DNA from: an uncultured Synergistales bacterium
Lineage (GTDB): Bacteria > Synergistota > Synergistia > Synergistales > Aminobacteriaceae
Length of the DNA: 64,000 bases
Reading direction: 5' to 3'
Assembly (NCBI GenBank): GCA_905234075.1
Contig: CAJOGI010000002.1
Location: forward strand, 205,035-269,034
Part shown: in pieces, positions 3,391 through 6,006 of the stretch
How the letters are laid out: each line of letters starts with the position of its first letter
Position numbering within the stretch: the stretch's first letter is position 1
The notes under the pieces: model-generated
The model's input: only the letters and a program-made list of their open reading frames with translations
Databases searched by the model: none
Told to the model about the DNA's origin: nothing
Translations under genes and position numbers: made by a program

Positions 3391-3969
3391 TCATTGCCAC
3401 ATTCCTAATTTTGATTTTTTTGCTTCGTTTTGAATTTCTTTGAAAATTTTTTCGTATTTATTATTAGGCTTTATTATCAAAACTTTTGCATAGCCTCCGG
3501 CTAATAATTTTGCATTGAACATTTCGCGCCGTATCGTTTCATCATTAATCGCCTTCGGTTTCGATAGCCATATATAAGCAAGATGCCTGTTATATCTGTC
3601 CTGCGGCGATTTATCATATTCAAGCCACACGGGCCGGCCGTTCAAATTTTCTTTTGTGAAGTTGCTTGCTTCTTTTCCGTAGGGCTGAACTCCTTTTGTA
3701 GGGTGAACAGTCTCTGGAGTGTCAACGCCTAAAAATCTTACGCGCCTGTCCTCGCCGTTTACTCTTATAACTGCCGTGTCCCCGTCAACAGCACGCACGA
3801 CAATGCCTTGAATTAAGCCGGAATTATCCTGCTCTGCGCCATTGTCATTAAATAAAGATAAATCTCCGCCGGCAAAATAAATTACAGCCGCCGCTATGAT
3901 TAATAAAATAATTTTTTTCGGGCCAAGTGCCGCGAGGTCTTCGAGCGTTATATTTTTTTTACGTGCCAT
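3391..3969 (-). CDS. membrane-anchored thermonuclease (SNase-like)
   Basis: 192 aa from the ATG at 3969, chosen because AAAGGAG sits 9 bp upstream. A longer frame to 4014 has no ribosome site. The N-terminus is basic (MARKKN), followed by a membrane helix (about 20-38) and an SNase OB-fold (about 57-190). Catalytic residues of staphylococcal nuclease are recognisable: the VDGDT calcium site, RFLGVDTPE (first Arg and Glu) and DRYNRHLAY (second Arg). The family cleaves DNA and RNA with calcium. The anchor suggests an extracytoplasmic nuclease for nucleic-acid scavenging or DNA processing (inference). It converges on the RodZ-like gene. Confidence 0.9.
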   Translation of the reverse strand: MARKKNITLEDLAALGPKKIILLIIAAAVIYFAGGDLSLFNDNGAEQDNSGLIQGIVVRAVDGDTAVIRVNGEDRRVRFLGVDTPETVHPTKGVQPYGKEASNFTKENLNGRPVWLEYDKSPQDRYNRHLAYIWLSKPKAINDETIRREMFNAKLLAGGYAKVLIIKPNNKYEKIFKEIQNEAKKSKLGMWQ

Positions 3970-4011
3970 AATAAAAACTCCTTTAATGATAGAATTAGCT
4001 ACTAGGAGAGG

Positions 4012-4079
4012 CATTCTGAATTTTTCAGAATGAGGCTCACACGGGGGACACCGCCTCCGTAGCCTGAAAAAATTTCAGG
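4012..4079 (+). ncRNA. cluster of strong hairpins ahead of a small ORF
   Basis: Three stems are visible. CATTCTGAA/TTCAGAATG is perfect with a 3-nt loop (4012-4032). AGGCT...AGCCT encloses ACGGGGG/CCTCCGT (4033-4065). CCTGAAA/TTTCAGG (4063-4079) competes with the base of the second stem. The density of perfect stems is unlike other intergenic DNA here. They stand immediately before a very strong Shine-Dalgarno, so a structured 5' leader is the likely reading. No known Rfam family was recognised. Confidence 0.5.
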
Positions 4080-4097
4080 ATCAAGGGAGGTGGTAAC

Positions 4098-4214
4098 GTG
4101 AAAGATATGGTCATGCTTTACTTAAAAATAAAGCTCGTAAAAGCCATCACTGACTTGACACGAGCACTAGCGGACTTGATCCGCACCATAAAGACACGTA
4201 ACTTCCAACCTTAG
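4098..4214 (+). CDS. possible 38-aa amphipathic peptide
   Basis: A GTG start lies 8 bp after GGGAGG, and 38 codons end in TAG. The peptide begins MKDMVMLYLKIKL and ends RTIKTRNFQP. It has no Cys, alternates Leu/Ile/Val/Ala with Lys/Arg/Asp, and would form an amphipathic helix. A perfect stem (GCGGA/TCCGC) lies inside the ORF. It is flanked by a hairpin-rich leader and a possible terminator, an arrangement resembling type I toxin or small regulatory peptide loci, but no family was recognised. It could also be chance coding in a structured RNA. Confidence 0.4.
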   Translation: MKDMVMLYLKIKLVKAITDLTRALADLIRTIKTRNFQP

Positions 4215-4227
4215 AATGTAAACTTAT

Positions 4228-4312
4228 CTGAGGTGGGGAGAGCAGCCCCTCTTCAGTGAGTTTTCATTTTATTTTTATTGTGAACGTCCGACCTCTCCCG
4301 GACGGCTTTATT
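4228..4312 (+). terminator. tandem hairpins closing the small-ORF element
   Basis: GAGGTGGGG/CCCCTCTTC (about 4230-4254) is followed by T-rich sequence. CGTCCG/CGGACG (4285-4304) is followed by GCTTTATTAT. Either may terminate plus-strand transcription. The second also lies just past the stop of the minus-strand pilB-like gene. Confidence 0.5.
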
Positions 4313-4317
4313 ATACA

Positions 4318-6006
4318 CTAAATTGTAGTCGTCAAAACTTCCTCAAGCGAAGTAACTCCGTGAAGAGCCGCGTTAATTCCTGCACGCCGTAAAGTTTTCA
4401 TTCCGTGCTTTATAGCCGCTTCTCTTAATTCAATATTATCCGCGCCTTTCAAAATCATTTCCCGCAGGTCGTCATCTACAAACATAATTTCATATATTCC
4501 GCGCCTGCCCCTGTAACCGTTGCGGCAATGCTGACAGCCTACGGGCCTGAAAGCGTGTGAGCCGGTCGGAACTTCGATTTTTTCACAAGTCTTTTCGTCA
4601 AGTTCATATTCTTCTTTGCAATGAGGACATAAACATCTCACGAGCCTTTGTGCAATTACTCCCGAAAGCGAAGCGGAAAGCAAAAACGGCTGTATCCCCA
4701 TGTCAATAATTCTTGTTGCCGCGCTTGGTGCGTCGTTCGTGTGAAGCGTCGATAAAACAAAATGCCCCGTCAGTGCCGAGCGTATTGCTATTTGCGCCGT
4801 GTCGCTGTCTCTGATCTCTCCTATCATGATTTTATCCGGGTCCTGACGCAAAATTGAACGCAGTGCCGAGTCAAAAGTCAGTCCGGCTTTTTCGTTGACG
4901 TTTACCTGATTTATTCCGGGAATATAAAATTCTACCGGGTCTTCGACTGTGATTATGTTAATGTCCGGGTGGCTTATTCTCTTCAGCATTGAGTAAAGCG
5001 TCGTAGATTTTCCTGAACCCGTCGGGCCTGTAGCGAGCAAAATTCCCCATGGCATCTCGCAGAATTTATTTATATATTCCATGTCGTCTTCATCAAAGCC
5101 AAGCTGTTCGAGTTCAACGGCGGCGTGGTCCCTGTCTAAAATTCTCATGACGATTTTTTCTCCGCTCATCGTGGGCAGCGAAGAGACGCGCAAGTCTATA
5201 TGTTTTCCATCAACGACGGTTAATATACGTCCGTCCTGCGGCTTTCTTTTTTCTGAAATATCCATGCCTGACATAATTTTTACACGCGATATTACGGACG
5301 GGTGAAGGCTCGAAGGATATTCAAAATGGACGTATAAATTTCCGTCAACGCGAAATCTGAAGCGGCTCATCTGCTCGTAGGCTTCTATGTGAATGTCGGA
5401 GGCTTCTTCTTTCACTGCCTGCTGTATCATATCGTTGACAAGTTCGATTAAAGGCGCGTCATCGGGCCCGGCAACAACAGTCGTAGCTGAAAGAGTCGTA
5501 TATGCTTCCGTGCCGTCTGTCATATCGCTGGCGGCTAAAATACCCTCCATGTTCGCAGTGAAATCATAAATTCTCTGCAAATTTCTCGATATGTCGTCGC
5601 TCCCGGACACTGCTGCCCTCAAATTATGCCCCGTTAATAATTTTATTTCGTCCTGCGCCGGCAGGTCTAACGGGTCGGCCATAGTTATTAATAAAGTATC
5701 GTCATCGTCAAGCTGAAGAGGAATTAAATTTAATCTCTCGGCGATATTTCGGGGAACTAATTTTATAGCGTCGGGTTTCGCTTGATAGCGGTCAAGCTGT
5801 ATAAACTGAAGCTCAAGCTGTACGGCTAAAGTCTCCGCAACTTGAGTGCGTGTCATGGCGTTTATTGATACAAGAATTTCACCGATCCTCTTATCTGAAG
5901 TTTTTTGAATCTTCAAAGCGTTATCAAGCTGGTCTTGAGTAACTAAATCATATTCGCGCAAAATCTCCCCGAATCTTTTACGCGACTTTAGAAAAAAATC
6001 CTGCAA
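4318..6006 (-). CDS. pilB: GspE/PilB-type secretion or pilus assembly ATPase
   Basis: 562 aa, typical of PilB/GspE. Domains are an N-terminal MshEN/T2SSE_N region (about 5-155), the N2 domain, and the ATPase with Walker A GPTGSGKST (about 325-333), an Asp box, Walker B/His region (GEIRDSDTAQIA, about 394) and ALTGHFVLSTLHTNDA. A C-terminal tetracysteine zinc motif follows (CLCPHC about 458; CQHC about 488). The family powers type IV pilus or type II secretion pseudopilus extension at the inner membrane. No pilC, pilT, pilin or gsp genes are in the window, so its partners lie elsewhere. It diverges from hisS across 82 AT-rich bp. Confidence 0.93.
   Translation of the reverse strand: MQDFFLKSRKRFGEILREYDLVTQDQLDNALKIQKTSDKRIGEILVSINAMTRTQVAETLAVQLELQFIQLDRYQAKPDAIKLVPRNIAERLNLIPLQLDDDDTLLITMADPLDLPAQDEIKLLTGHNLRAAVSGSDDISRNLQRIYDFTANMEGILAASDMTDGTEAYTTLSATTVVAGPDDAPLIELVNDMIQQAVKEEASDIHIEAYEQMSRFRFRVDGNLYVHFEYPSSLHPSVISRVKIMSGMDISEKRKPQDGRILTVVDGKHIDLRVSSLPTMSGEKIVMRILDRDHAAVELEQLGFDEDDMEYINKFCEMPWGILLATGPTGSGKSTTLYSMLKRISHPDINIITVEDPVEFYIPGINQVNVNEKAGLTFDSALRSILRQDPDKIMIGEIRDSDTAQIAIRSALTGHFVLSTLHTNDAPSAATRIIDMGIQPFLLSASLSGVIAQRLVRCLCPHCKEEYELDEKTCEKIEVPTGSHAFRPVGCQHCRNGYRGRRGIYEIMFVDDDLREMILKGADNIELREAAIKHGMKTLRRAGINAALHGVTSLEEVLTTTI

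Follow-up and report, generated by a model that had tools for sequence, protein, structure and literature searches.

As of 2025, type I toxin–antitoxin systems were known only in Proteobacteria, Firmicutes and Tenericutes, apart from one cyanobacterial case, as far as the accessible part of the source goes (PMC12390103). In the open-access literature, we found no report of such a system in Synergistota, Synergistetes or Synergistaceae. The AapA/IsoA system of Helicobacter pylori comprises a toxin of ∼30 aa, co-transcriptional hairpins that mask the Shine–Dalgarno (SD) sequence, and a cis antisense RNA; the full-length AapA3 mRNA is held inert by an interaction between its 5' and 3' ends and by SD sequestration, an arrangement compared there with hok (excerpts of PMC6733600). 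The same excerpts describe hok mRNA as stably folded, with processing of the 3' end required for translational activation. In txpA/RatA, bsrG/SR4, bsrE/SR5 and yonT/SR6 of Bacillus, and in the RCd systems of C. difficile, toxin and antitoxin genes are convergent and overlap; for SR6/yonT the 3' ends overlap and both promoters have an extended -10, and BsrG has 38 aa (partial texts of PMC5848175 and PMC6563280). TisB of Escherichia coli (29 aa) forms an amphiphilic helix, one face of which bears alternating charges along its length; it has a trans-acting antitoxin and is subject to LexA control (partial text of PMC8309996).

Here we describe a locus on the plus strand of a 64,000-nucleotide stretch, the window, which corresponds to positions 205035–269034 of contig 2 in the 1.84 Mb genome (18 contigs) of an uncultured Synergistales bacterium. 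The locus lies between a staphylococcal-nuclease-like gene (3391–3969) and a pilB-like gene for a pilus ATPase (4318–6006), both on the minus strand and both assigned by Pfam. An earlier note, made from the sequence alone, had placed at 4012–4312 a structured element with three stems, a strong SD, a 38-codon ORF and two closing hairpins. Every one of these parts is present, and the element is real. Its limits were drawn too tightly, as the sense promoter (3987–3995), a 5' seed (4005–4011) and a reverse-strand -10 (4310–4315) also belong to the unit; the compact cassette spans 3987–4320 (∼330 bp). The RNA is predicted to fold much more stably than shuffled sequences, at -109.9 kcal/mol (z = -6.35 versus dinucleotide shuffles, none of 100 being as good).

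We put the probability at about 0.8 that the cassette represents a new family of type I toxin–antitoxin-like cassettes, with transcription, toxicity, inhibition and trimming all inferred. Its layout would join a Bacillus-like convergent antisense gene to a hok/AapA-like closure of the mRNA. Comparative tests support a coding ORF, two pairings within the mRNA, a strand polarity in the structures, the two promoter motifs and an antisense terminator, and the note's suggestion of a type I toxin-like locus with a translation-blocking leader is upheld by selection on the frame, the amphipathic helix, SD sequestration and the antisense signatures, the last of which had gone unnoticed; toxicity itself is an inference.

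The sense promoter carries an extended -10, TGATAGAAT (3987–3995). The pattern TGNTANAAT occurs upstream in 80 of 111 copies, with consensus TGATARAAT. A conserved -35 is absent at both the sense and the antisense promoters, and a generic sigma-70 scan found none. One caveat is that the sense-promoter and ATTATA patterns were picked after inspection of copies that were later included in the counts. Three leader hairpins follow. The first (4012–4032) has nine perfect pairs and shows compensatory changes across 36 leaders; the second (∼4041–4060) has a 3' arm, CCGCCTCC, that doubles as a candidate anti-SD; and the third (4063–4079), directly 5' of the SD, is found in only part of the family. The SD itself, AGGGAGGTGG (4084–4093), has the consensus AAAGGAGGTGATAGCGTG in the 36 leaders. 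It precedes the class-1 ORF of 38 aa (4098–4214, GTG start, TAG stop). Beyond the stop codon lie a long 3' UTR hairpin with a T-rich stretch after it (4215–4268, inner part 4228–4258) and a 3' terminal hairpin (4285–4304), which are two candidate sense terminators.

Selection on the class-1 peptide is evident from the sequences. Among 89 distinct ORF cores (pairs of ≥60% identity), pN/pS was 0.45 in frame, the two alternative frames giving 0.94 and 2.32, and codon-position entropies were 0.97, 0.48 and 1.40. Outside the hairpin embedded in the ORF, the values were 0.40 in frame and 0.995 and 3.64 off frame. By this sequence measure, which the earlier note had proposed as a check, the ORF is coding and the peptide is under purifying selection. 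The 80 class-1 peptides are 25–38 aa long, with a mean net charge of +3.3 and a maximum hydrophobic moment of 0.73 (0.40 when shuffled). The window peptide is predicted to form a single helix over residues 2–35 (mean pLDDT 90). These models suggest that the product is a small amphipathic helix, with membrane activity inferred. That it matches no known family, as first supposed, still holds: searches of Pfam, NCBIfam, PHROGs and PADLOC gave no convincing family. Hok, Ldr/Fst, TisB and other such peptide families are represented by Pfam or NCBIfam models, and none of these was among the matches when 28 class-1 members were compared with both databases at E ≤ 0.1. The best resemblance, below threshold, was to phenol-soluble modulins (E = 0.0012 in NCBIfam and 0.0081 in Pfam, in each case for three of the 28 members), which the window peptide itself did not match in either database. 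The cassette was also without a credible Rfam match at gathering and permissive thresholds.

The G-rich 5' end of the mRNA and the loop of the last hairpin are complementary in sequence. In the window, the 5' seed GGAGAGG (4005–4011, near the mRNA 5' end) faces CCTCTCC at 4292–4298. Other copies begin with GGGAAGC, GGGGAT, GGCGAGG, GGCAGGG and further variants, likewise complementary to their loops. In 31 aligned units, Watson–Crick pairs occupy 196 of 217 positions (208 with G–U), compared to a mean of 152.6 (sd 5.5, maximum 173) for permuted controls and no more than 94 when the strands were slid. Pairs 2, 3, 4, 6 and 7 have changed on both sides. Behind this analysis are alignments A2 and A3, selected from subfamilies with G-rich 5' ends and covering 36 of 60 leaders and 34 of 56 tails (window included). 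An unselected test took in 67 of the 111 copies, failures included, leaving out 31 without the promoter pattern, seven without ATTATA and six without the hairpin. The best complementary run in 78 units averaged 6.53, versus 5.80 (sd 0.12) after permutation, a value that none of 2000 permutations reached; for 43 distinct loops, those of the unselected test, the figures were 5.35 and 3.91 (sd 0.16; 0 of 5000). Support from thermodynamics is weaker, with folding ensembles favoring 5'–3' pairing in only 36 of 59 units, against 31% in swapped controls. In subfamilies with other 5' ends, the complementary stretch is elsewhere or absent. Judged by covariation, the full-length mRNA meets the hok/AapA-type criterion of a 5'–3' end interaction; hok mRNA likewise has 5'–3' elements. 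On the MAFFT alignment A3, RNAalifold did not recover a consensus structure for the long hairpin of the 3' UTR; its support comes from the strand-polarity test, in which the sense strand was the more stable for 53 of 59 3' UTR hairpins, as it was for 57 of 59 leaders.

A second helix would hold the ribosome-binding site. Its 5' arm (4083–4100), containing the SD and start codon, pairs with a 3' arm (∼4195–4213) made of the ORF end and stop codon. We tested this pairing, along with the ensembles, in 59 units (58 of the 111 copies plus the window copy). The energy of a unit's own arms was -13.04 kcal/mol, versus -11.25 (sd 0.28) for permuted arms, and none of 3000 permutations did as well. Such a signal was absent when a mid-ORF control segment was paired with the SD. 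Pairing between SD and leader was weaker than start–stop pairing and still above permutation (10 of 3000 reached it), in line with the transient SD-masking hairpins of AapA3, so far as the excerpts describe them. Mean SD accessibility was 0.15 in the 59 units, and swapping whole 3' UTRs barely shifted it (0.15 versus 0.16). The second hok/AapA-type criterion, SD sequestration in the full-length mRNA, is also met.

Signatures of an antisense RNA occupy the opposite strand. Past the last hairpin, a reverse TATAAT (4310–4315, minus strand; read as ATTATA in the sense strand, 60–180 nt past the stop) occurs in 92 of 106 copies, compared to 5–17 of 106 for five control hexamers. Within the toxin ORF, the antisense strand folds into a hairpin (4133–4165) followed by a U-rich tail (4124–4132; UUUAUUUUU in the window). 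For hits at E ≤ 1e-9, the only ones used, this fold averaged -17.6 kcal/mol, versus -8.0 for synonymous codons, and 69 of 70 cores did better than their controls; the antisense strand was more stable than the sense strand in 68 of 70 class-1 cores. Copies from other genera behaved similarly, with 19 of 19 beating synonymous controls and 15 of 19 more stable in antisense than in sense. The two Ile codons lying over the antisense U tract are ATA in 99 of 102 cases, and it is because both are ATA that UUUAUUAUU follows the antisense hairpin in most copies. A plain scan for antisense terminators with loops of ≤8 nt gave only a weak signal (23 of 71, versus 5 of 71 shuffled), missing the longer hairpin. 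Comparative sequence tests thus identify the first half of the ORF as an antisense-strand terminator facing the reverse promoter. Given both elements, an antisense RNA of ∼180 nt is predicted on the minus strand (4124–4303, running from ∼4303 to 4125); there are no transcript data, and the RNA is inferred from the promoter and terminator signatures at its ends. The antisense layout of hok/Sok differs from this one.

A covariance model of the leader found matches in 28 of the 43 genomes of the window's genus and was part of the route to a second class of ORF, whose peptide (consensus MKxFLDxIIKLLQYISxxATVLEIILRVIRxxxTH) is unrelated to class 1. Class 2 occurs in 17 of 180 genomes of the order, all from the window's genus, and 16 members gave zero matches in Pfam and NCBIfam. 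In a tandem array on contig 1 of one genome, neighbors of different class have leaders that are 96–97% identical and ORFs that are 52% identical. This second class is maintained under peptide constraints of its own, and it shows the same RNA features. Its antisense fold is -20.3, versus -10.0 for synonymous controls (18 of 18 better), and 17 of 18 cores are more stable as antisense than as sense strand. Start–stop pairing averages -13.3, against -11.8 when permuted (3 of 2000 reached), and for the C-terminal Thr, whose codon is the one paired with the SD, ACC is used in 13 of 14 cases, compared to 1 of 26 elsewhere. We lean towards the idea of a reusable toxin chassis, without regarding it as settled: a 330-bp scaffold (promoter, 5' seed, leader, 3' UTR, 3' loop and reverse promoter) into which small ORFs are swapped, each having to encode a membrane helix and the antisense terminator and, at its 3' end, to supply a pairing partner for its own SD and start codon.

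A DNA search of 100 relatives returned matches in 27, all from the same genus; the cassette is therefore not a chance sequence, a possibility that the earlier note had tied to its absence elsewhere. A peptide profile built on 28 peptides was positive at E ≤ 1e-4 in 38 of 185 Synergistota genomes, all in one family: 28 of the 43 genomes of the window's genus and 10 genomes from nine other genera. Weak profile matches (E ∼0.003) inside ORFs of ∼450 aa were judged false and were removed by this cut. An exact 18-base stretch of the 3' box is carried by goat-stomach Synergistaceae MAGs, an uncultured Fretibacterium sp. and a red-deer Synergistales MAG, and the host is inferred to be a member of the Synergistaceae living in the ruminant gut. 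Similar 18-base matches in Haloarcula, Nocardioides, Oscillospiraceae and others were judged to be chance, the peptide profile having no match in those loci, and so was a single match in a GC-rich, phage-like viral contig. A tblastn search with one class-1 peptide found no carriage by phages or plasmids.

In 80 fetched stretches we counted 111 copies, 52 of which have a same-strand neighbor copy <600 nt away (median spacing of tandem copies, 326.5 nt). Thirty of the 111 lack a recognizable SD and start, and 31 lack the promoter pattern. Many copies sit no more than a few hundred bases from the end of a contig; near-identical repeats thus probably break assemblies, which would make the copy numbers underestimates. 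At the nuclease/pilB site, we fetched 30 of the 42 nuclease-bearing genomes; of those fetched, 23 showed no pilB next to the nuclease. Among the genomes examined, only the window genome and one other have the cassette at this site, and in five close relatives the nuclease adjoins pilB with the cassette absent. The window genome has one further copy, decayed, on contig 11 (∼1740–2040), which has GGAGGTA-like repeats in place of the leader but keeps the core of the ORF, the antisense hairpin and the 3' box. Presence and absence, tandem expansion and decay are all compatible with an element that is partly selfish and addictive.

Some loci in the survey depart from the standard unit. On a red-deer Synergistales contig (minus strand), one copy has the leader and 3' box and lacks the ORF. 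Five loci hold class-1 relatives that have diverged (GVRVVKDLVEILKAVAL... and MRDFIKLLEAVAKLINAIAHLINSIKK); the 3' box is similar and the 5' end different (CAGTCCGTGA...), and in some of these the stretch complementary to the loop sits farther down the leader. Weak matches to the leader model also led to two tandem units of another small-ORF element (locus L251, minus strand, 400–1500 of its contig), with a possible relative in locus L248. Its peptide has a basic N-terminus and then a hydrophobic stretch (VATKKGKGRKRT...), its leader ends in CCCTGTGGAAAGGGGGTGTTAGC and its promoter reads TGCTATAAT; it may be a separate toxin-like family.

How might such a cassette work? In the model we propose, a sense RNA of ∼300 nt would encode the amphipathic helix of 25–38 aa and would be born closed, its 5' end paired with the 3' loop and its SD and start codon with the ORF end. 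Translation would require refolding or, more probably, trimming of the 3' end, which would remove the seed loop. The antisense RNA (∼180 nt) would start at the downstream reverse promoter, cross the 3' UTR, stop region and rear part of the ORF, and terminate at the hairpin and U tract that the ORF contains. We infer that this RNA binds the mRNA and blocks or degrades it, with the 3' loop as the likely first contact. Because the loop at the 5' end of the antisense RNA repeats the letters of the mRNA 5' end, we predict that these two 5' segments compete for the 3' loop. Should the antisense RNA fail, the TisB-like helix would be free to act, and we infer that it would enter and depolarize the membrane of its own cell.

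Other explanations must be weighed. The leaderless, amphipathic and cationic character of the helix, together with the sub-threshold matches to phenol-soluble modulin alpha (E = 0.0012 in NCBIfam and 0.008 in Pfam, three of 28 each), would suit a secreted membrane-active peptide, modulin-like or akin to a leaderless bacteriocin, whose RNA structures only tune expression with no antisense antitoxin. Such a peptide would not need an antisense promoter and an ORF-embedded terminator, yet these are conserved in two unrelated peptide classes; moreover, the genes flanking the window copy encode a nuclease and a pilus ATPase. We consider this explanation improbable, although a secreted role is not excluded. 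Still less credible is a selfish repeat or non-coding RNA element in which the ORF is incidental. The cassette does behave like a repeat, being multicopy and tandem (52 of 111 copies <600 nt apart), missing from the nuclease/pilB site in five relatives, and present in decayed copies, one with its ORF gone. Stems preserved without the reading frame would have marked a non-coding RNA, as the earlier note pointed out, but the frame is selected even though some copies are decayed: in-frame pN/pS is 0.45 against 0.94 and 2.32 (0.40 outside the hairpin), a strong SD and start are retained, and a second ORF class is kept with peptide constraints of its own.

A further alternative bears only on the end-to-end pairing and leaves the remainder of the toxin–antitoxin model intact. 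Here the 5'/3' complementarity is not an mRNA fold; the antisense 5' loop mimics the mRNA 5' sequence, and both bind a third partner. An inverted repeat accommodates the two readings simultaneously, and this repeat does lie at the 5' end of the antisense RNA, given where the reverse promoter stands. On the other hand, the cells that are not Watson–Crick hold 12 G–U and four A–C, as expected of a helix in the sense RNA (these cells are not independent), and one subfamily has a T run after the 3' hairpin, so the sense RNA should contain that hairpin. Mimicry is unlikely on this evidence, if worth keeping in mind. Finally, the leader hairpins, short ORF and terminator-like hairpins are also what a leader-peptide attenuator or riboswitch controlling a downstream gene would display. 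We find this idea barely tenable, as both neighbors in the window are on the opposite strand, the unit is closed by terminator-like hairpins of its own, copies are tandem, and Rfam offers no credible match.

Read as a type I-like system, the cassette shares with AapA/IsoA, to the extent that the excerpted source describes it, a small toxin-like peptide, 5'–3' closure of the mRNA, SD sequestration and a predicted cis antisense RNA. It differs in that its peptides match no family, its antisense promoter lies beyond the 3' end of the toxin with the antisense RNA predicted to end inside the ORF, its closing element is a 7-nt hairpin loop while the SD and start pair with the ORF end, and its scaffold is common to two peptide classes. 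A folded toxin mRNA, with activation by 3' processing inferred for the cassette, recalls the partial description of hok/Sok, whereas the cassette peptide has no Hok match in Pfam or NCBIfam. Like the Bacillus and C. difficile systems, as partially documented above, the cassette has a predicted convergent overlapping layout, and the 38 aa of BsrG equal the length of the window peptide; unlike them, it places the antisense terminator in the first half of the ORF. There is no sequence match to those systems, and the available portions of their accounts report no 5'–3' seed. As in TisB, charges fall on one face of the helix (K, K, E, R, D, R and K in the class-1 consensus, the face being assigned by inspection), but the cassette peptide is more charged and is without a Pfam match. 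What appears to be new is the combination of parts and the shared chassis; the parts themselves resemble those of known systems.

A multicopy family in the Synergistaceae would extend type I systems to another phylum. It would also suggest a homology-free way to search for them, by looking for short ORFs with an antisense-strand terminator and complementary mRNA ends. The overlap of three codes (peptide, antisense terminator and start–stop lock) in two unrelated peptides is a clean example of RNA structure constraining protein sequence. If the chassis reading is true, RNA rules partly dictate the residues of the toxins, namely the II-K motif, the palindromic KLVKA..IRA and the C-terminal T-H/R.
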